A DNA stretch of 64,000 bases. Origin: Halomonas sp. A11-A. Lineage in GTDB: Bacteria > Pseudomonadota > Gammaproteobacteria > Pseudomonadales > Halomonadaceae. The DNA lies in NCBI RefSeq assembly GCF_003182195.1, contig NZ_QGTM01000003.1, positions 124,001-188,000 on the forward strand, written 5' to 3'. Within the stretch, counting starts at the first letter, position 1. Each line of letters begins with the position of its first letter. The position numbers and the translations under genes are program-made. Positions 8,499 to 21,241 of this stretch are shown here, in pieces. Under the pieces are notes generated by a model. That model worked only from the letters and a program-made list of their open reading frames with translations. It made no database searches and was not told the origin of the DNA.

Positions 8499-8771
8499 GG
8501 TAGAGGTATTGTCATCCTAGCCCCGGGAGGGTCCTCCGGCGGCCAGAGGAGACGCCGGAGTGAGAGGGTCAACTCGCCCTCGGCATCTTTAAGTGCGCAT
8601 AATGTATATTATGTTAAATGCAGTAGCTCCCGGGGGGATCCATCCCGTCCTCGGTGGTACTTTTTCGCTCCTGTGGCCGAAATCTTCACCCCCTTTGGCC
8701 CTCCCCGGTTGGACAAGCCGGCCGGCGACTCCTTATCATCACGCGACCGCTACAAGGAATACTCCTGCCCC
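8499..8771 (+). promoter_or_regulatory. Leader and likely promoter of the rlo-type operon
   Basis: This 273-bp stretch carries no convincing gene. It contains an isolated AT-rich patch at about 8586-8620 with several possible -10 hexamers (CATAAT at 8598, TATATT at 8605, TATTAT at 8607) but no good -35. The protein start at 8772 has no strong ribosome site. I infer a promoter here independent of ectABC. Confidence 0.4.
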
Positions 8772-9611
8772 ATGTCCCGACCCCTGCTGTTCACCGGAGC
8801 CCTCTCCCTCGGCCTGTTGCTCTCCGGCTGCGCCCTGACCCATCAGTCGCCGGAACCGGAGCCCGTGCTGGGCCCGGAGGAGTTCGCGCTGCGCATCGAC
8901 CGACTCGAGTCGGAACTGGCGGCCCGCTGCGAGCTGCAGCAGGCGCAGTTCGGTGAGCACGCCCGCCGCCAGGACACCCTGGTGGCCGACGTGCGTGAGG
9001 TCGGCAGCCTGGTGCGCCACCTGCGCGCCGATATCGAGCGCCTGGAGCGCACCGATGGCGAGCCGACCCTGATTCCCCAGGAGTGCGCCACCGTCGAGCC
9101 TGCCATGGGCGGCAAGACCGTGGTCGGTCGCAGCGAGTGGATCGGCCTGCCCGATGTGGGCACCTACCTGAAGGCGCGCGTCGATTCCGGCGCCAACACC
9201 TCGTCGCTCTCGGCCAGCGAGATCACCCGGTTCGAGCGCGACGGCGCCAGCTGGGTGCGCTTCAAGCTGGGGCTCACCGACGATGACGTGGTGGTCGACG
9301 GCGTGCGCGACGAGTGGATCGAGGCGCCGGTGGAGCGCCGGGTGCGGATCGTGCAGGCCTTCGGCGAGGGAACTCGCCCGGTGGTCAGCCTGATGATGAC
9401 CCTGGGGCCGATCCGCGAGTCCGTGGAGTTCACCCTCAACGACCGTACGCACCTCAACTACCCGGTGCTGCTCGGCCGGCGCTTCCTGATGGACATCGCG
9501 ATGATCGATGTCGCGGAGACCTACCTGCACGAGCGCCCCGAGTTTCCCGGCGGCCGCCCGGCCGACGAGGCCGAAGCCGACGAGAACGATCGGGAAGACG
9601 AGGAGCGCTGA
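8772..9611 (+). CDS. Retropepsin-like lipoprotein (RloA-type, DUF/PF05618 protease domain)
   Basis: A 279-residue predicted lipoprotein. Residues 1-19 form a lipoprotein signal with lipobox LLLSGC. A helical, probably coiled segment follows (about 40-95). The C-terminal half is the putative ATP-dependent zinc protease/retropepsin-like domain, with the catalytic-type motif RVDSGANTSSLSA and the closing NYPVLLGRRFL. Such domains occur beside RimK/ATP-grasp ligases and inactive transglutaminase membrane proteins; the trio has been linked to osmotic stress tolerance in Pseudomonas and named RloA/RloB/RloC. The next two genes are exactly those partners. The start at MSRPLL gives the intact lipobox. 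The substrate is unknown. Confidence 0.82.
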   Translation: MSRPLLFTGALSLGLLLSGCALTHQSPEPEPVLGPEEFALRIDRLESELAARCELQQAQFGEHARRQDTLVADVREVGSLVRHLRADIERLERTDGEPTLIPQECATVEPAMGGKTVVGRSEWIGLPDVGTYLKARVDSGANTSSLSASEITRFERDGASWVRFKLGLTDDDVVVDGVRDEWIEAPVERRVRIVQAFGEGTRPVVSLMMTLGPIRESVEFTLNDRTHLNYPVLLGRRFLMDIAMIDVAETYLHERPEFPGGRPADEAEADENDREDEER

Positions 9612-9658
9612 GGCGCCCTGTCCGCCCCGTCTCGTCCTGAACTCGCCAAGGAAGCCCC

Positions 9659-11164
9659 ATGTCACGACTCCCCTTCTATCTGCTGGTCGGCCTGCTGCTG
9701 GTGACCGGCATCGGCCTCAGCGTACACCGTCATATCACCCTCGAAGTCCCCTGGACCCCCGGCGAACAGCGTGAGGTATGGGAGGTCGAGGCGCTGGTCA
9801 GCTTCACCGCCCAGGGAGGGCCGGTGCTGGTCAACATGGCACTGCCGTCGAATCAACAGGCGTATCGGCTGCTCACCGAACACACCGCGTCCCCCGGCTA
9901 CGGCCTGGCCTTCCTGGAGGAGAACGGCGGCCGTCGCGCCCAGTGGTCGATTCGCGAGGCCTCCGGGCCCCAGCAGCTCTACTACACCGCCCAGATACTG
10001 GCGACCCCGAATGCCGCCCCTACCAAGCTCGAGCCGCCTGAACTACGCCGCGACATCGTCTGGGAGCGCCCCTACGACACCGCGGCGACCCAGGTGATCG
10101 AACGCGCCTGGAACCGCAGCGCCGATGCCTTCACCTTCGCCCGGGAGCTGATCCGCGACTTCGGCGACGAGCGCCAGGGCGAGAATTCGCGCCTGCTGCT
10201 GACCCAGTTCGAGCGCGGCCCGCTGCTGGTGCGCCTGCTCAACCAGGCCGGTGTGCCGGCCCGGGAGGTCAGCGGCCTGCTGCTGGAGGATGGCCGTCGC
10301 CGCCAGTCCCTCAGCCAGTGGGTCCAGGTGTTCGACGGCGACCGCTGGAGCCTGTTCAACCCCATCACCGGCGAGCAGGGTCGCCCTGACAACCTGCTGC
10401 TATGGGAGTCCTCCGGCCAGGCGGTACTGGAGGTCCAGGGTGGCACCAACTCCCGGGTCACCTTCTCGATGCTCAACCGCAATCAGCCGGCGGCGGCCGC
10501 GGTGCGCAGCCAGATGGCCGAGGACACCCTGCTCAACTTCTCCATCCACAGCCTGCCGCTGGAGGAGCAGGCACTGTTCCAGACCATTCTGCTGATCCCC
10601 ATCGGTGCCCTGGTGGTGGTGGTGCTGCGCATTCTGGTGGGCATCAAGACCTCCGGCACCTTCATGCCGGTGCTGATCGCGCTGGCCTTCATCCAGACCT
10701 CCCTGATCACCGGGCTGGTGGGTTTCCTTCTGGTGGTGGCGGTGGGCCTGGTGATCCGCAACTACCTCTCCTACCTCAACCTGCTGCTGGTGGCGAGGGT
10801 CTCGGCGGTGATCATCACGGTGATCGCCATCATCTCGCTCTTCTCGGTGCTCTCCTACCGCTTCGGCCTCAACGCGGGCCTGACCATCACCTTCTTCCCC
10901 ATGATCATCCTCTCCTGGACCATCGAGCGCATGTCGATCCTCTGGGAGGAGGAGGGTCCCAAGGAGGTGCTGATTCAGGGCGGCGGCAGCCTGCTCACCG
11001 CGGTGCTCGCCTACCTGGCCATGAACAACCCCTGGGTGCGTCACATCACCTTCAATTTCCTGGGGGTGCAGCTGATCCTGATGGCGCTGATCCTGCTGCT
11101 CGGCAACTACACCGGCTACCGGCTGCTCGAGCTGCGCCGCTTCAAGCCCGTGACCGAGGATTGA
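9659..11164 (+). CDS. Inactive transglutaminase-fused 7TM membrane protein (RloB-type)
   Basis: A 501-residue inner-membrane protein. One N-terminal TM helix (about 5-25) is followed by a periplasmic region of about 260 residues that resembles a transglutaminase domain lacking a clear catalytic Cys. About seven C-terminal TM helices follow (from about residue 305: QTILLIPIGALVVVVLRILVG onward). This is the UUP1/7TM-transglutaminase architecture. It lies 47 bp after the retropepsin-like lipoprotein and 5 bp before the ATP-grasp gene, matching the RloB position. A role in a membrane-bound peptide or amino-acid ligase system for osmotic tolerance is inferred from family context. Confidence 0.84.
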   Translation: MSRLPFYLLVGLLLVTGIGLSVHRHITLEVPWTPGEQREVWEVEALVSFTAQGGPVLVNMALPSNQQAYRLLTEHTASPGYGLAFLEENGGRRAQWSIREASGPQQLYYTAQILATPNAAPTKLEPPELRRDIVWERPYDTAATQVIERAWNRSADAFTFARELIRDFGDERQGENSRLLLTQFERGPLLVRLLNQAGVPAREVSGLLLEDGRRRQSLSQWVQVFDGDRWSLFNPITGEQGRPDNLLLWESSGQAVLEVQGGTNSRVTFSMLNRNQPAAAAVRSQMAEDTLLNFSIHSLPLEEQALFQTILLIPIGALVVVVLRILVGIKTSGTFMPVLIALAFIQTSLITGLVGFLLVVAVGLVIRNYLSYLNLLLVARVSAVIITVIAIISLFSVLSYRFGLNAGLTITFFPMIILSWTIERMSILWEEEGPKEVLIQGGGSLLTAVLAYLAMNNPWVRHITFNFLGVQLILMALILLLGNYTGYRLLELRRFKPVTED

Positions 11165-11169
11165 GCGCC

Positions 11170-12159
11170 ATGTTGAACTGGACCACCCCGGAAAAGCTGC
11201 GCCTGAAGGGCATCGTCGGCATGAATCGGCGCAACATCCGCTACATCGGCCGCTACAACGATCGGCGCCTCTACCCGCTGGTGGACGACAAGCTCAAGAC
11301 CAAGCTGCTGGCCCAGAAGCACGGCATCACCACGCCGGCGCTGATCGGCACGGTGACGACCCAGTTCGGGGTCAAGCACCTCGACGAGATGCTGCGCGGC
11401 CACAACGGCTTCGTGATCAAGCCGGCCAAGGGCAGCGGTGGCAAGGGGATCCTGGTGATCGACCACGTCGACGGCGGCGCCTTCGTCAAGCCGAGTGGCG
11501 CCCGGCTCACCCTGGAGGACATCGAGCGCCACACCTCCAATATCCTCTCGGGGCTCTACTCCCTGGGCGGCTCGCCCGACGTGGCGGTGGTCGAGGCGCT
11601 GATCAACTTCGACGAGCGGCTCTCAGAGTACACCTACGAGGGGGTGCCCGATATCCGCGTCATCGTCTTCCTGGGCTACCCGGTGATGGCGATGATGCGG
11701 CTCTCCACCGCGGCCTCGGATGGCAAGGCCAACCTCCATCAGGGGGCCGTGGGGGTGGGGCTGGACATCGCCACCGGCACCGCCATCCGCGGCGTGCAGT
11801 TCGATCGCATCCGAGTCGACCACCCGGATACCGGCCACGAACTGGCCAGCCTGCATATCCCCGACTGGCGCACCCTGCTGCTGCTGGCCGCCGGCTGCTT
11901 TGAAATGACCGGGCTTGGCTACCTCGGCACCGATATGGTGCTGGACCGCGACCAGGGGCCCATGCTGCTGGAGCTCAACGCCCGCCCGGGGCTCGCCATC
12001 CAGATGGCCAACGGCGAGGGGCTGCGCCGCCGGCTCGACCTGATCGAGCGCCAGGCCCCGGGCGCCTCCCCCGAGGCGCGTGTGGCCTTCGCCCAACGCC
12101 ACTTCGCCAGACGCAGCGAACTCGAGCCCACCGCCGAGACGACGGCCGAGGCCGTCTGA
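11170..12159 (+). CDS. Alpha-L-glutamate ligase-like ATP-grasp protein (RloC-type)
   Basis: A 329-residue ATP-grasp enzyme related to RimK, which adds glutamate or similar amino acids to an acceptor. The ATP-binding block reads GFVIKPAKGSGGKGILVI, and the metal-binding C-terminal motif is LLELNARPGLAIQMAN. The subgroup start MLNWTTPEKLRLKGIVGMNRRN is typical of proteins encoded after the inactive transglutaminase gene. The ATG at 11170 follows the previous stop by 5 bp, implying translational coupling. The acceptor and amino acid are not known. The C-terminal tail is rich in Ala/Glu/Thr. Confidence 0.85.
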   Translation: MLNWTTPEKLRLKGIVGMNRRNIRYIGRYNDRRLYPLVDDKLKTKLLAQKHGITTPALIGTVTTQFGVKHLDEMLRGHNGFVIKPAKGSGGKGILVIDHVDGGAFVKPSGARLTLEDIERHTSNILSGLYSLGGSPDVAVVEALINFDERLSEYTYEGVPDIRVIVFLGYPVMAMMRLSTAASDGKANLHQGAVGVGLDIATGTAIRGVQFDRIRVDHPDTGHELASLHIPDWRTLLLLAAGCFEMTGLGYLGTDMVLDRDQGPMLLELNARPGLAIQMANGEGLRRRLDLIERQAPGASPEARVAFAQRHFARRSELEPTAETTAEAV

Positions 12160-12226
12160 CAGCGGCTGGCCGGGCCGCGGTGCGGCGCGTAGAATAGGCC
12201 TTCCATTTCGCCACACGACGGTCGTC

Positions 12227-12670
12227 ATGTCAGACTCCCGCGCCCTGCTCGACCAGGCCGCCCAGCAGTGCCAGCAGCGCGGCGTGCGCTTCACCCCGAT
12301 CCGGCGACGGGTGCTGGAGATGATCGCCGAGGCCTCCGGCGGCCTCAAGGCCTATGACCTGCTCGACCGCCTGGCCGAGGAGCATGCCGCCGCCCGCCCA
12401 CCCACCGTCTACCGTGCCCTGGATTTCCTGATCGAACAGGGCCTGGTGCACCGCATCGAATCGCTCAACGCCTACGTGGCCTGCCCCTGCCCGGAGCACG
12501 CCCATGGCTTCCAGCTGCTGATCTGCCGGCTCTGCGGGCGGGTCGAGGAGCTGCATCTTGACGACGTCAACGCTCAGCTTTCGCGGCGGGCCCGCGACCT
12601 GGGCTTTCGCGTGGAGCGCCAGACCATCGAACTGCTGGGCCACTGCGAGGCGTGCCACACCACGTCTTGA
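12227..12670 (+). CDS. zur: Fur-family regulator, probably Zur
   Basis: A 147-residue Fur-family repressor. It has the N-terminal winged helix ([16 protein letters not shown] ... [22 protein letters not shown]) and the C-terminal dimerisation domain with two zinc-binding pairs, CRLC and CEAC. The [14 protein letters not shown] block and the lack of the His-rich Fur segment favour Zur (zinc uptake control). The ATG at 12227 is chosen because the winged-helix domain starts shortly after. No znuABC genes are adjacent, so the Zur assignment rests on sequence alone. Confidence 0.8.
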
Positions 12671-12714
12671 GCCGACCACCCTGCCCCTTTCCACCACTGC
12701 CAGCCGGACCGACC

Positions 12715-13161
12715 ATGAGCGAACCCTTCAAGGCCCTCGAGCGGGCCCCCCACGATAGCCGCTACCCCCTGGCCGAGCTCCTCGATGCCGCGGGCTTCAA
12801 TGCCGACGGACTGATTCCCGCCATCGCCCAGCAGCATGATTCCGGCGAGGTGCTGATGATGGCCTGGATGAATCGTGAGGCGCTGGAGGAGACCCTGCGC
12901 ACCGGCCGGGTCTGCTACTGGTCTCGCTCGCGGGGCAAACTGTGGCGCAAGGGCGAGAGCTCCGGCCAGCAGCAGCACCTGAAGAGCGCCGCCCTGGACT
13001 GCGACGGCGATACCCTGCTGCTGCAGGTGGAGCAGACCGGTCCGGCCTGCCACACCGGCAGGCGCAGCTGCTTCTATGTGGCTCTGGAGAACAACGAGGC
13101 GTGCATCACCGCGGAACCGCTGATCGATCCCGACACCCTCTATGGCAACGGCAAGGGATAG
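12715..13161 (+). CDS. hisI: Phosphoribosyl-AMP cyclohydrolase HisI
   Basis: HisI opens the purine ring of phosphoribosyl-AMP, the third step of histidine synthesis. The 148-residue stand-alone protein shows [10 protein letters not shown], the [12 protein letters not shown] block, the metal-binding DCDGDTLLL and [10 protein letters not shown]. There is no fused HisE (phosphoribosyl-ATP pyrophosphohydrolase) domain. Stand-alone hisI is usual in this group, but the rest of the histidine operon is not here. yidD follows after 2 bp. Confidence 0.95.
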
Positions 13162-13163
13162 CG

Positions 13164-13529
13164 ATGCCCTACCCCACCGCCTGGCTGGTCCGCCTGCTGC
13201 GCGCCCTGCGCCGGGGCATGGCCTGGCTGATGGTCGCGCTGGTGCGGGTCTACCAGGTCACCCTGAGCCCGCTGCTGGGGCCGCGCTGCCGCTACTGGCC
13301 GAGCTGCTCCCACTACACGGTGGAGGCGATCCAGGTGCATGGCCCCTTGCGGGGCGGGCTACTGGCCGCGCGGCGCATCGTGCGCTGTCACCCCGGTTGC
13401 GAGGGTGGCATCGACCCGGTGCCGGGCGGGCCCAGCGAACGACTGTGCCGTGAGGACCCGGAGCTGGATGAGCAGTTCCGCCCCCGGGACTCCGCGGATC
13501 CGGCGCGGGAGCGGAAGAAGGCAGAGTGA
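13164..13529 (+). CDS. yidD: Membrane protein insertion efficiency factor YidD
   Basis: A 121-residue small protein of the YidD family, which assists YidC-dependent membrane protein insertion. Features are an N-terminal amphipathic/hydrophobic helix, the [27 protein letters not shown] signature with its cysteines, and the [14 protein letters not shown] motif. The C-terminal 30 residues are charged and variable. It usually sits between rnpA and yidC near the origin; here it is coupled to hisI (2-bp gap). The gene itself looks intact. Confidence 0.93.
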
Positions 13530-13557
13530 GTCCCCTGCCTGACTAGCCAGCCCGGTG

Positions 13558-13983
13558 TCAGGCCGCCTCCTGCTCGGCCACCTCGTAGATGCGCTTGAGC
13601 ATGGCGTGAAGGCCGTTGCTGCGGGTCGGCGAGAGGTGCTTGTCGAGACCCAGGTCCGTGAGGAAGTGCGGGCTGGTGGCGCGGATCTCGGCGGCTGGCC
13701 GGTCGTTGTAGATGCGCATCAGCACGGCGATCAGCCCGGAGACGATGGCGGCATCGGAGATGGCGTCGAAGTGGATCCGCTCTCCTTCGCGCTCATGGCG
13801 CATCCAGACGTTGGACTGGCACCCCTGGATCTTCAGCTCGTCGCTCTTCCACGCCTCGGGAAACTCCGGCAGCGCCTTGCCCATGTCGATGATGTACTGG
13901 TAGCGATCCATCCAGTTGTCGAACATCTCGAACTCTTCGAGTAGCGCCTGTTGTGCCTGCTCGGTGGTGGCTTCGGTCGTCAT
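13558..13983 (-). CDS. sufE: SufE/CsdE-type sulfur acceptor protein
   Basis: SufE accepts sulfane sulfur from a SufS-type cysteine desulfurase and passes it to Fe-S cluster assembly. The 141-residue protein carries the active cysteine in the conserved IQGCQSNVW block and the typical C-terminal LSPTRSNGLHAML. The start at 13983 has a clear AAGGAG site. No sufS or sufBCD lies nearby. nfuA, another Fe-S protein gene, lies 2.6 kb away beyond the recombinase pair. Confidence 0.93.
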   Translation of the reverse strand: MTTEATTEQAQQALLEEFEMFDNWMDRYQYIIDMGKALPEFPEAWKSDELKIQGCQSNVWMRHEREGERIHFDAISDAAIVSGLIAVLMRIYNDRPAAEIRATSPHFLTDLGLDKHLSPTRSNGLHAMLKRIYEVAEQEAA

Positions 13984-14010
13984 GGGGGCTCCTTGGTCAT
14001 TTTCGCGCTG

Positions 14011-14016
14011 ATTATA
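14011..14016 (-). promoter_or_regulatory. Probable -10 element of sufE overlapping the recombinase stop codon
   Basis: Reading the minus strand, a perfect TATAAT lies 28 bp before the sufE start, and its bases overlap the TAA stop of the recombinase gene. The -35 region is poor. This suggests sufE has its own promoter even though the recombinase gene lies directly upstream on the same strand. Confidence 0.45.
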
Positions 14017-15196
14017 CCGGCTGGTTGCTGTCCTCGTCCGCCCCTGTGGCCAGGCGATGGGCCGACTGCTGGCGGTGCCAGGCCTCGTCCTCGGCATGCA
14101 GGTAGCGCGCCGTGGTATCCAGCCGCGAATGGCGCGCGGTGGCGGCCAGGTAGCGCAGCTCCACCCCGGCCTGGGCCTGGTGGGTCAGTGCGGTGTGGCG
14201 TAGCCAGTGGGGGGTGGCGGCGCGCAGCCGCATGGCCCATGGCCTGCCCTCCTCCCCCTGCTCAGCCTCCAGCGCCTCCGCGGCCTCGCCGAACGCCTCG
14301 CGGATAAGCCGATAAAGCCGGTTGTCGCCGAGGCCGCGCCGGCCGTCCAGGGCGCGCAGCACCGGTGTGGCGTCGTCCGGCAGCGGTTCGGCGGCGAGCC
14401 CCAGTGTCCGGCGCCACTCGGTGAGCAGCGTGACCATGTCGGGCGGCACCGGAATGGTCGCCGTCTTGCTGCCCTTGCCCGTCACTCGCCACCACCAGCG
14501 CCCCTCGCGGCGGTGAAAGTCTCCCATGCGGGCCGCGCTCATCTCGCCGATCCGCGGGGCCAACAGGTAGGCGAAGCCGAATGCCAGGCGGCGACGCTGC
14601 CACTCGTAGTGCTGCCTGGGCGAAGTGCCCTCCTCCACCGGCCGGCCGAGCCAGGCCCAGAACCACTCCCATAGCGGGCGCTCCAGGTAGCGCTCGACCC
14701 CTCCCTGGCGGTTGTCGAGGCGTCGGCGCTTGTCGCGCATCAGTCGGAAGGGGTTGTGGGCCACCCAGCCCGCCTCCACCAGCCAGGCGAACATCCCCTG
14801 CAGGATCACCAGGCTCTGGCGTCGGCTGGCGGGGGCCAGCGGGCCACGGAAGGGGCGCCACGCCTCATCCTGGCGCGGCCTGGGTGGCCCAACCCAGCGC
14901 TTTCGCGGGCGCGGGTCGGCCAGGAAGGCCTCAAAGGCATCCAGATGGTCGCGCCGCACCTCGCCAAGGCTGAGCCCCTGCTCCGCCAGCCACAGCAACA
15001 GCCGCTGCGCCTCGCGGCGGTAGGCGCGCTGCGTGCGAGGGCTCGCGCGGTACTCGGCAAGCCACAGCCCCACCGCCTCGGCGTCGCTGCGCGCACTGAT
15101 ATGGGCGCTGCGCACGGGGGGCGCGGCGGGAAGCAGCTCTCCTGCCGGCGCGGGCAGGAGCTCGCTGCTCGTCTCGTCACGGGTCTGGCGATCCAC
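14012..15196 (-). CDS. Tyrosine recombinase/integrase
   Basis: A 394-residue site-specific recombinase. The N-terminal core-binding (SAM-like) domain spans about 35-150 (RTQRAYRREAQRLLLWLAEQG). The catalytic domain holds the full set of residues: Arg in APRIGEMSAARM, Lys in TGKGSKT, His-x-x-Arg in PHWLRHTALTHQ, His in ARHSRLDTTARYL and the Tyr nucleophile in the same block. It starts with GTG at 15196 after a GGGG-rich ribosome site. No tRNA, phage or cargo genes are near, so it does not look like the integrase of a local island. It is divergent from a KfrA-like gene, with AT-rich dyads between. The target site is unknown. Confidence 0.86.
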   Translation of the reverse strand: MDRQTRDETSSELLPAPAGELLPAAPPVRSAHISARSDAEAVGLWLAEYRASPRTQRAYRREAQRLLLWLAEQGLSLGEVRRDHLDAFEAFLADPRPRKRWVGPPRPRQDEAWRPFRGPLAPASRRQSLVILQGMFAWLVEAGWVAHNPFRLMRDKRRRLDNRQGGVERYLERPLWEWFWAWLGRPVEEGTSPRQHYEWQRRRLAFGFAYLLAPRIGEMSAARMGDFHRREGRWWWRVTGKGSKTATIPVPPDMVTLLTEWRRTLGLAAEPLPDDATPVLRALDGRRGLGDNRLYRLIREAFGEAAEALEAEQGEEGRPWAMRLRAATPHWLRHTALTHQAQAGVELRYLAATARHSRLDTTARYLHAEDEAWHRQQSAHRLATGADEDSNQPV

Positions 15197-15247
15197 CCCT
15201 TTCCCCTTCTGCTAGTCCTTGCGCCCTAGTATCCCGACTCCATGCAC

Positions 15248-15283
15248 ATAAAATCAAGATAATCCGCGTAATCTTGCTTTTAT
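15248..15283. promoter_or_regulatory. Inverted repeat 1 in the recombinase/KfrA-like intergenic region
   Basis: Arms ATAAAATCAAGAT (15248-15260) and ATCTTGCTTTTAT (15271-15283) match as an inverted repeat with one mismatch, around a 10-bp centre AATCCGCGTA. It lies 52-87 bp before the recombinase start in a strongly AT-rich gap. It is a likely operator or recombination site; the binding protein is not known. Confidence 0.6.
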
Positions 15284-15301
15284 CACCTATTTCATATCAT
15301 A

Positions 15302-15327
15302 AATTACGTATAACGTATTATGTAATT
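15302..15327. promoter_or_regulatory. Inverted repeat 2 in the recombinase/KfrA-like intergenic region
   Basis: AATTACGTA (15302-15310) and TATGTAATT (15319-15327) form 9-bp arms with one mismatch around TAACGTAT. The inner sequence also contains ACGTATAACGT. It lies about 110 bp before the KfrA-like start, and a TATTAT hexamer within it could be a -10. This is a likely autoregulatory operator. Confidence 0.55.
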
Positions 15328-15434
15328 ATCTTCCCTTTCACCCCTCCACGGGATATGCTGCGCCCCATCGGCGCTTGCGGCCGCGCCCCATCTCGAGGTG
15401 GCCCACAGGCGAGAGCAGAGCAAGGAGAGGCGAT

Positions 15435-16463
15435 ATGGCGCGCACCGGCGTGCAGTACGAGGACGTGCAGCGGGCGATCGATGACCTGCTGGCACGGGGC
15501 GAGGCGCCCAGCGTGCAGAAGGTGCGCGAGGTGCTGGGCACCGGCAGCTTCACCACCATCAGCGATCATCTGCGCGAGTGGCGCCAGCGGCGCGACGAGA
15601 ACCGCGACGTGCCGCCGCCCCGCGGCATGCCGGCGGCCCTGCAGGAGCTGGCAGAGGCGCTGTGGCACAGGGCCCAGGAGAGTGCCAACGAGGCCCTCGC
15701 CCACTACCGGGAGGAGGCAGACCGTCGCATCGCGGCGGCCGACGAGGCGGTGGCCGAGGCGCGCCGCCAGGCCGAGGACGCCGAGCAGCGGGAATCGGCC
15801 CTGGCGGCCCACCTGGCCAGCACCGAGCAGCGCCTGGAGGAGCGCAGCACGGCCCTGGCCCGCAGCGAGGCGCAGCGGGAACAGCTCATCGAGAAGGGTC
15901 ACCGCCTGGAGACCCGCCACGCCGAGCTTGAGGGGCTGCTCGAGCGGATCCGCGGCGAGATGGCCCAGCAGGGCCGGGAGCACCAGCAGGCCATGGAGAC
16001 CCTGGAGGCGGCGCAGCGCGAGCGCCTGGCCCGGGAGGAGCAGCGCCACGAGAGCGCCGAAGCGCGGCTGATGGGGCTGCTGGACGAGGCGCGCCAGGAA
16101 CGCCTGGCCGGCGAGAAGGCCGCCGCGGATCGGGAGAAGCAGGTCGCGGTCCGCCTGGAGCGCCTGGAGCAGCAGCTGCAGGAGGCCCGCGGGCGCCTGG
16201 CCGAGGAGGAGAAGCAGCACCGGGAGACCGACTGGGCGCGCCGCCAGGCCGAGACCCTGGCCGATACCCGCCAGCACGAGCAGGCCCTGCAGCAGGCGCG
16301 CATCGACGAGCAGAAGCGCCTGCTGGAGGAGCAGGCCCGCCGCCTGCGCGACCTGGAGCAGCAGCTCCATCGCTGCCTGTGGCAGACCCCACCGACGCCT
16401 GATGGCAAGGAGGAGGTCGACAACGACGAAGGCCCCGCCATGGCGGAGCCTTCAGAGAAATAG
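15435..16463 (+). CDS. KfrA-like DNA-binding protein with long coiled coil
   Basis: A 342-residue protein. Residues 1-60 match the KfrA N-terminal DNA-binding domain (VQRAIDDLLARGEAPSVQKVREVLGTGSFTTISDHLREWR). Residues about 75-325 are an almost uninterrupted Glu/Arg/Ala/Gln coiled coil. KfrA proteins of plasmids bind their own promoters and can form filaments through the tail; chromosomal versions are poorly described. The ATG at 15435 follows AAGGAGAGG. Divergent from a tyrosine recombinase, so it may be a regulator or architectural partner of it. Function in the cell is not known. Confidence 0.78.
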   Translation: MARTGVQYEDVQRAIDDLLARGEAPSVQKVREVLGTGSFTTISDHLREWRQRRDENRDVPPPRGMPAALQELAEALWHRAQESANEALAHYREEADRRIAAADEAVAEARRQAEDAEQRESALAAHLASTEQRLEERSTALARSEAQREQLIEKGHRLETRHAELEGLLERIRGEMAQQGREHQQAMETLEAAQRERLAREEQRHESAEARLMGLLDEARQERLAGEKAAADREKQVAVRLERLEQQLQEARGRLAEEEKQHRETDWARRQAETLADTRQHEQALQQARIDEQKRLLEEQARRLRDLEQQLHRCLWQTPPTPDGKEEVDNDEGPAMAEPSEK

Positions 16464-16467
16464 CCGA

Positions 16468-16487
16468 GGGCGGGCGCCTGCCCGCCC
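16468..16487 (+). terminator. GC-rich hairpin after the KfrA-like gene
   Basis: GGGCGGGC / GCCCGCCC with a GCCT loop lies 5 bp after the stop codon. There is no T tract. It may act with the palindromic element that follows as a transcription barrier. Confidence 0.5.
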
Positions 16488-16494
16488 GGCCTGC

Positions 16495-16641
16495 CTAGGC
16501 TTTGCCTGAAACGTCGGCGAGCGAAGGTCAGACAAGGCAAAAATCAGCGAAAAGACGGAGTTTACGGGGTGTAAATGAGTACTTTGAGCTGATTTTTAAC
16601 GCCGTATGGTCGAGCGCAGCCAGTTTTCGGGCAGAGCCTAG
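16495..16641. repeat. 147-bp imperfect palindrome, MITE-like or BIME-like element
   Basis: The stretch begins and ends with CTAG. Its terminal arms match over about 17 bases: CTAGGCTTTGCCTGAAA at the left against the complement of TTTTCGGGCAGAGCCTAG at the right. Pairing continues in patches, notably AAAATCAGC against GCTGATTTTT. It closes at a central hairpin TTTAC-GGGGT-GTAAA. It is more AT-rich than its surroundings. The right end supplies the stop codon of nfuA. It lies between two convergent genes. Copy number elsewhere cannot be seen from this window. Confidence 0.65.
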
Positions 16642-17228
16642 CGGTAGTAGGCGTTGGTGGTGTCGGTATGGTCGGTCACGTCGCGGATGCCGGCCAGCTC
16701 CGGAATGCGCTCCATGAGGGTCTTCTCGACACCCTCCTTGAGGGTCAGGTCCACCGCGGCGCAGCCCTGACAGCCACCGCCGAAGGCCAGCACCGCCACC
16801 TGCTCCTCGGTGAGCTCGATCAGCTTGATCTCGCCGCCGTGGGCGGCAAGGCCGGGGTTGATTTCGCTGTAGAGGATGTAATTGATGCGGTCCTCCAGCG
16901 GGCTGTCGGCGTTGACCTTGGGCATCTTGGCGTTGGGCGCCTTGATGGTGAGCTGGCCGCCCATGCGATCCTTGTTGAAGTCGACCACCGCCTCCTCGAG
17001 AAACGGCAGGCTGTTCTTGTCCAGGTAGACCGCGAGTTTCGGCAGCTCGAGACGCTCATCCGTCGGCTCCTCCTCACCGGGGCGGCAGTAGGCCAGGCAG
17101 GTCTCGGCATAGGGGGTGCCGGGCTGCGTGATGAAGATGCGCACGGCGATGCCCTCGACGTTCTGCTTTTCGAGCAGCTCGGCAAGGTAGTCCTGGGCAC
17201 TGTCGGTGATCTGGATCGGGTTGCTCAT
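16638..17228 (-). CDS. nfuA: Fe-S biogenesis protein NfuA
   Basis: NfuA carries and delivers 4Fe-4S clusters to client enzymes. The 196-residue protein has an N-terminal degenerate A-type carrier domain and a C-terminal Nfu domain with the cluster-binding CxxC in [16 protein letters not shown]. Length fits the family (about 190). The start at [12 protein letters not shown] gives the standard N-terminus. The TAG stop lies within the right end of the palindromic element, so the last codons (NAYYR) border or overlap it. It is divergent from metH. Confidence 0.95.
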
Positions 17229-17527
17229 GATGTTCTCGCTGGTCGGGCTGCGGCCTGGTGCGTTCCCTCGGCAGGCCACGCGTCGGGGGTTGACTGTCTC
17301 CCATGGTAAGACAGCGGGCCGGAACTGACAATCCCGAGTGAATTGGTTGGTCTTTGCGCAACGGCCTGCCTTTGGGCGCGCCTTTTGGTAACATGGGCCG
17401 CCATCCCTGGCCGCCCCTGACTGACACCGCCGGCTCTGCCGGAGCGCTGCAGCAGGCAGAAGACGCCCCGAGGCGTCCGTGCGGCCCTGCCCCTGGATGC
17501 GACTTTCGCTGGAGACAAGACCTGCCC
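17229..17527 (+). promoter_or_regulatory. nfuA-metH intergenic region and metH leader
   Basis: This 299-bp divergent gap holds no gene. A possible extended -10 for metH (TG at 17386, TAACAT at 17389-17394) lies about 135 bp before the start. Two leader hairpins follow: CCGGC/GCCGG at 17430-17442 and GACGCC/GGCGTC at 17462-17477. I looked for cobalamin or SAM riboswitch signatures and saw none. Confidence 0.35.

Positions 17528-21241
<3,714 letters not shown>

Follow-up and report, generated by a model that had tools for sequence, protein, structure and literature searches.

Bacterial chromosomes are usually described as having one Xer system and one dif site for the resolution of dimers. The dif site is built of two arms around a 6-bp centre, a layout that the dyad discussed below resembles. 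In the XerL/dif system of Legionellales, the site is found on a plasmid and on the chromosome of Coxiella, and the element LME-1 mimics the dif of Legionella (PMC9765430). TnpS/TnpT-rst is the cointegrate resolution system of the Tn4651-type transposons of the Tn3 family (PMC7157771), and KfrA of plasmid RA3 has an operator of five 9-bp repeats (PMC7783346, PMC7821693). Here, we analyzed a stretch of 64,000 nucleotides from Halomonas sp. A11-A (contig NZ_QGTM01000003.1, positions 124,001 to 188,000; hereafter the window), in which a gene for a tyrosine recombinase and a gene for a KfrA-like protein are divergently oriented, with two repeat structures (dyads 1 and 2) between them. On sequence grounds, we consider it probable that the locus is a resident, KfrA-assisted, single-recombinase and Xer-like module for multimer resolution, located at the terminus near dif.

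The recombinase matched Phage_integrase (51.7 bits, E 1.2e-13). Its start codon is not fixed, and conservation begins around residue 30. R215, K241, H330, R333, H356 and Y365, which we take to be the catalytic set, were invariant in a 15-row alignment and in 19/19 aligned relatives (the window counted), in agreement with the original prediction of a full-length enzyme with all its catalytic residues. Although XerC was its top NCBIfam match, with XerS scoring lower still, the protein fell far below the NCBIfam cut-offs, with 57.7 vs 335 bits for XerC and 39.1 vs 329.6 bits for XerD, and in a phylogenetic tree it was placed outside the clade formed by XerC and XerD from the same and other genomes (support 100/100). 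A first tree contained wrong open reading frames (ORFs) for the organism's own XerC and XerD, and a second tree was rebuilt; there, the position of the window sequence inside its own recombinase family was without resolution.

The gene is present once in its own genome and once in each of 33/36 congeners (67-83% identity); the congeners with no match are G002 (79% complete), G025 (85%) and G028 (99%), G numbers denoting genomes and L numbers the loci or contigs compared. An order-level search detected it in 17/18 genomes of the family Halomonadaceae. Its divergent neighbor was kfrA in 28/29 congener loci, L004 ending before it, and kfrA was found in 78/80 named loci, where L065 and L071 end before it. 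The named loci are the best 80 of 150 found and come from Halomonas, Billgrantia, Chromohalobacter, Modicisalibacter, Onishia, Franzmannia, Litchfieldella and Bisbaumannia. The two genes keep company across the family, and the rare co-occurrence that would have spoken against the prediction was not seen. In L125, L129 and L137 an insertion separates kfrA from the recombinase gene; insertions adjoining the site were inspected at the ORF level.

The facing protein is indeed of the KfrA type (Table 1), with a long tail that is coiled-coil-like, as judged from its sequence and from weak SMC matches. An ATG aligned with the kfrA start in 29/29 regions examined, so that the earlier TTG start, taken from the ORF list, is unneeded. 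Of the two inverted repeats that had been predicted in the intergenic region, the arms of dyad 1 were right, and for dyad 2 an array of TTACGTA-like repeats is a more fitting description. TTACGTA occurs once, at the locus, in the 204 kb of the organism's own contig that were scanned, the other 3.1 Mb of the genome not being covered, and the idea that KfrA acts as a many-site organizer of the terminus was therefore rejected. Probably, the array is the target of KfrA, and that KfrA would bind to it appears highly likely to us. The organism also codes for a second KfrA_N protein (L033, G000:C12:61757-62119; 60 bits).

Dyad 1 has arms of 13 bp (15248-15260 and 15271-15283), with one mismatch and a 10-bp loop. 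Its conserved register lies inward, as CAAGATAA-TCCGCG-TAATCTTG at 15255-15276, with a spacer of 6 bp. The dyad was present in all 29 congener intergenic regions and in 126/128 family loci, in the form of 101 distinct 38-mers; the two loci that miss it, L065 and L071, have almost no sequence upstream of the recombinase gene. GCCGCG was the most frequent spacer in the family (49/126 loci), and none of the 126 copies had a palindromic one. The outer eight arm pairs were complementary in 508/808 cells vs a mean of 461 (sd 9, maximum 489) in 1000 shuffles, a statistic that is support rather than proof because the sequences compared are kin. Present across the family and with arms that vary in concert, dyad 1 is not a chance feature. 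Among 37 genus genomes, 33 had a site with 0-1 mismatch (two copies in G014, one in each other), the copy in G029 had 2 mismatches, and no site was found in G002, G003 or G028. No second copy was found in the organism's own genome. Site-like matches with 2-3 mismatches elsewhere are most likely due to chance, since a reversed-pattern control also matched once each in 10/58 genomes. Dyad 1 is likely to be a crossover site, and we would expect with considerable confidence that strand exchange occurs there. In this light, two broader suggestions of the original prediction are supported: that the dyads are recombination sites or operators, dyad 1 being the likely crossover site and dyad 2 the likely KfrA array, and that the two proteins may form a resident system for recombination, segregation or regulation, which the family-wide pairing and the conserved dyad 1 support.

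Table 1. Coordinates of the features of the locus and its surroundings, in positions of the window
Feature	Position	Strand	Remarks
Tyrosine recombinase ORF	14012-15196	−	Up to 394 aa; Phage_integrase match
KfrA_N protein with long coiled-coil tail	15435-16463	+	342 aa; KfrA_N 101.8 bits, cut-off 26.1
Dyad 1, likely recombination core	15248-15283		Arms CAAGATAA / TAATCTTG and AT-rich outer extensions
Asymmetric 6-bp spacer TCCGCG	15263-15268		Family spacer tally
Dyad 2, an array of TTACGTA-type repeats likely bound by KfrA	~15302-15330		Intergenic repeats
Canonical gammaproteobacterial dif core	8596-8619	+	24/24 match; none in 100 shuffles
sufE-named flanking ORF	13558-14097	−	Conserved synteny; outside the system proper
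nfuA-named flanking ORF	16638-17279	−	Conserved synteny; outside the system proper

The prediction had overlooked a perfect dif core in the window (Table 1), and the evidence also goes beyond it in the copies of the new site on plasmids and phages described below. The consensus used for dif is the canonical gammaproteobacterial one. This core is the sole dif match, 6.6 kb from dyad 1, and most congeners also have a single match. In the genus, 29/37 genomes had both sites on one contig, at distances of 3.1-32.4 kb that stayed within 13 kb in 27 genomes; the remaining eight had one site missing or on a different contig. Both were found in 62/80 named loci, at a median distance of 7.7 kb (range 3.1-13.2 kb) and, in 57 of the 62, on the same strand, and 16/80 had the site without dif within the available flank. 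The orientation of dif relative to the new site is opposite to that of most loci in L090, L102, L104 and L111, which suggests local inversions around dif. On the organism's own contig (C3), the cumulative GC skew is near its maximum at about 99-129 kb and then drops; both dif (132,596) and the site core (139,255) lie just past this turning zone. In two genomes sampled from other families, the skew reverses its sign near the locus: it was +0.097 at 2.04 Mb and −0.193 at 2.13 Mb in G384, with the locus at 2.09 Mb, and +0.036 at 1.95 Mb and −0.049 at 2.13 Mb in G646, with the locus at 2.07 Mb. Along with dif, the organism has XerD, above the cut-off, and XerC, just under the curated cut-off.

Three of 72,556 plasmid records matched the site, all from Halomonas: pHAL40 (4.3 kb), pTHAF12_c and pTHAF12_a. 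Because pTHAF12_a includes the whole of pTHAF12_c, these two count as one case. About 35 bp are repeated at the junction of pTHAF12_c (L168, 23 kb) within pTHAF12_a (L169, 169 kb), away from the site, and may stem from a different site-specific event or from the assembly. On the site-bearing, plasmid-like contig of G014 there are genes for a DUF6290/ribbon-helix-helix protein, for a ParE toxin and for a protein that resembles RepL weakly, under the cut-off. In addition, three viral contigs matched the site exactly. L162 codes for ParA and a RepL-like protein next to holin and tail-fibre genes, a terminal stretch of L163 is 81% identical to the RepL-like protein of L162, and L164 codes for a phage nicking protein, a major head protein and a replication initiator. 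By our own estimate of the size of the collection, the pattern alone could give about one chance match; the three were accepted because their arms extend past the pattern and two of them carry the array. In these two, L162 and L163, the TTACGTA-type array flanks the core on the side that it occupies in the chromosome, but kfrA was not detected; an array without kfrA would more probably belong to the recombination site than serve as an operator alone. No recombinase of the window's family was found in five site-bearing records searched, nor in a second set of six, in which KfrA was not found either; virus records may be fragments. A search of INPHARED phages gave 13 matching records with E no higher than 10, the best having E 1; their hosts are unrelated, and we took these matches as chance.

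As for the surroundings of the pair, sufE was close by in 29/29 congener loci, and the ORFs named sufE and nfuA adjoin the pair in relatives; the flank names sufE, nfuA and metH come from the prediction and from translations read by eye rather than from a family search. An inverted repeat with 16-nt arms at 16539-16597, between kfrA and the nfuA-like ORF, is possibly a terminator or a repeat element. No transposase was recognized among the ORFs of 9000-21000, no search being aimed at tnpA or terminal repeats. A decaying integrase of a local island, which had been named as what might overturn the prediction, was rejected: the gene is family-wide (33/36 congeners), its neighbors are conserved and the site is single in the organism's own genome, where other att-type repeats were not searched systematically.

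A survey of 46 distant homologues used frames from stop to stop, with L143, L200, L202, L203 and pWW0 as seeds of the KfrA profile. In a Pfam test, which is independent of the seeded profile, 9/10 partners passed the KfrA_N cut-off, including TnpT of pWW0 and the plasmid partners; L143 scored 26.5 vs a cut-off of 26.1 bits, and the partner in G367 (L142) had no KfrA_N match. Dyads of the form TTCATGATWA-N6-TWATCATGAA stand beside recombinase/KfrA-like pairs of other families in G367, G384, G169, G260, G615 and G479, with a variant in G518 and the same form on the Halioglobus plasmid pRR3-57. Homologues of the recombinase, any related tyrosine recombinase being counted, were found at E 1e-8 in 1636/72,556 plasmid records, and a divergent KfrA_N protein accompanies the homologue on pENH91 and on P. 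fungorum and Rhodanobacter plasmids.

XerC and XerD both went undetected at E 1e-40 in 10/28 genomes tested, all ten of which have a homologue. Within the order, outside the family, XerD was lacking in 9/11 genomes with a homologue vs 100/361 without one, the genomes being kin. G518, G449 and G470 have one homologue each (E 1e-30), with XerC and XerD undetected at E 1e-40; they group with the window's kind of recombinase in the first tree only, the second being without resolution, and for G470 no KfrA partner was found in the available DNA. The trees also separate a subfamily B, which includes homologues in G259, G274, G294, G372 and G054. For the first four, and for the homologue of G239, which is in neither tree, a KfrA partner was not found. 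Loci of subfamily B with no KfrA partner found are L143 (6586-7839), L142 (12278-13564), L148, L149, L150, L152 and L153; G384 and G367 hold both kinds of recombinase, in one cluster. XerD was not detected in the subfamily B genomes. In the single-contig genomes G259 and G274 the subfamily B gene is at mid-contig (relative position 0.505-0.506), and because of this position dimers may be resolved mainly by its product in those two. That the window's recombinase takes the place of XerCD elsewhere can be upheld only in part, since several genomes lacking XerC and XerD hold the KfrA-less subfamily B.

We propose that the recombinase would bind both arms of dyad 1 and carry out strand exchange over the 6-bp spacer of two site copies, such as would arise when the chromosome, or a site-bearing plasmid or phage-plasmid, dimerises. 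KfrA would bind the TTACGTA array beside the core and regulate the divergent genes, and, by analogy with the role of TnpT for TnpS, it probably assists the assembly of a productive complex. As the site is near dif, its chromosomal copies sit in the terminus, where sister copies would meet late in division. Extrachromosomal replicons would bring only the site and rely on the enzyme of the host. The weakest step is the assignment of chromosome dimer resolution as the main role, to which we would give slightly less than an even chance; it competes with a role mainly for plasmids and phages.

Several observations weigh against this proposal. The module is not obviously needed, because XerC, XerD and dif are also present, and G028 lives without the recombinase and the site; the family member G165 had no recombinase match at E 1e-40. 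No recombination product was seen, no genome examined has two good site copies except G014 with its plasmid-like contig, and the insertions in L125, L129 and L137 are not bordered by two site copies. Part of the linkage to dif may simply reflect conserved gene order; in G169, dif is about 94 kb from the locus. It was not found in 14 named loci that have the site and about 10 kb of flank. In G384, a finer skew profile turns not at the site but some kb away on one side. The TTACGTA array is lacking on the site-bearing plasmids and on phage contig L164, and a divergent KfrA-like gene was near only 16/46 distant homologues examined, within the available DNA.

Phage contigs and plasmids that carry the site without a recombinase of the window's family could instead be integrating replicons. 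The chromosomal site would then be mainly an attachment site, which mobile replicons copy and use to integrate near the terminus through the host enzyme, in the way that LME-1 uses XerL of Legionella, and any resident function would be secondary. The mimicry of the Legionella dif by LME-1 (PMC9765430) makes this conceivable, but no integrated element was found between two site copies in the 37 genus genomes or the 80 named loci, and replication or partition genes of plasmid type are present on the phage contigs; we regard it as unlikely. The position of the dyads between divergent genes would also suit a purely regulatory locus, with both dyads as operators through which recombinase and KfrA repress the divergent promoters, without strand exchange, and plasmid KfrA proteins are autoregulators with repeat operators (PMC7783346). 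The invariant catalytic residues, the conserved, non-palindromic 6-bp spacer and the replicons that carry the bare site without the genes make this quite improbable.

It is also hard to believe that the locus is a domesticated transposon or plasmid resolution module with no present function. Homologues are common on plasmids, some with a divergent KfrA_N protein, yet sequence, synteny and site are conserved family-wide, and among near-complete congeners G028 alone is without recombinase and site. G028 retains dif, sufE, kfrA and a TTACGTA-type array (L160, about 15200-15450), and neither the recombinase nor dyad 1 was found in it; we count this joint loss in favor of a module for multimer resolution.

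More broadly, it is possible, and we put it forward tentatively, that Halomonadaceae run two systems about 7 kb apart at the terminus, XerCD/dif and a KfrA-controlled single-recombinase system for dimer resolution. The latter would be an old gammaproteobacterial alternative to Xer, with members also where XerC and XerD are undetected, and plasmids and phage-plasmids of the family would be kept monomeric via the second site. Throughout Halomonadaceae, a further recombinase gene occurs near dif, accompanied by a dif-like site of its own and a plasmid-type KfrA partner, and the site is also present on plasmids and phages. If our reading is correct, it would explain how site-bearing plasmids and phages can stay monomeric, give a KfrA protein a chromosomal role and provide a compact recombination site for Halomonas, a genus used in biotechnology. 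It would also let one ask how a single-recombinase system arises beside XerCD before replacing it.

With regard to XerCD/dif, we take the arms, the 6-bp centre and the inner ATAA of dyad 1 to resemble dif, and the terminus location to be common to both; the window system differs in its arm sequences and in having its own gene-linked site. A second dif-like system in Halomonadaceae is undescribed in the titles and abstract openings of the open-access literature searched. By their description, XerS/difSL and XerH/difH are set apart, as they replace XerCD (PMC2731167). KfrA of RA3 and IncP plasmids shares with the window protein a KfrA_N head, a long alpha-helical tail and a repeat-array operator, a putative one in the window (PMC7783346, PMC7821693), whereas the window protein is chromosomal, paired with a recombinase and associated with a repeat period of about 7 bp. 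In TnpS/TnpT-rst, as at our locus, recombinase and helper are divergent and the site between them has core repeats and a second repeat pair (PMC7157771). By its KfrA_N match (93 bits), TnpT of pWW0 belongs to the same protein family as the window KfrA, to which it is 32% identical over 218 aa (E 3e-9), a value in which coiled-coil bias is possible. Orthology to TnpS was rejected, BLASTP of pWW0 TnpS (323 aa) against the window recombinase giving E 0.47, and, unlike TnpS/TnpT-rst, the locus is chromosomal, near dif and without a recognized transposase. XerL of Legionellales resembles the window enzyme as a single recombinase of about 400 aa with a dyad site near the terminus and a mobile-element copy; however, no XerC, XerD or dif was found in XerL hosts, all three being present in the window's genome, and the text of that paper does not mention KfrA, with which the window recombinase is paired (PMC9765430). 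We claim membership in neither system. By analogy, TnpS/TnpT-rst appears to be the closest working model for the pair and, by description, XerL/dif the closest chromosomal one, and the locus has what single-recombinase Xer systems have in general, an intact tyrosine recombinase and a gene-linked, dif-like site near the terminus.

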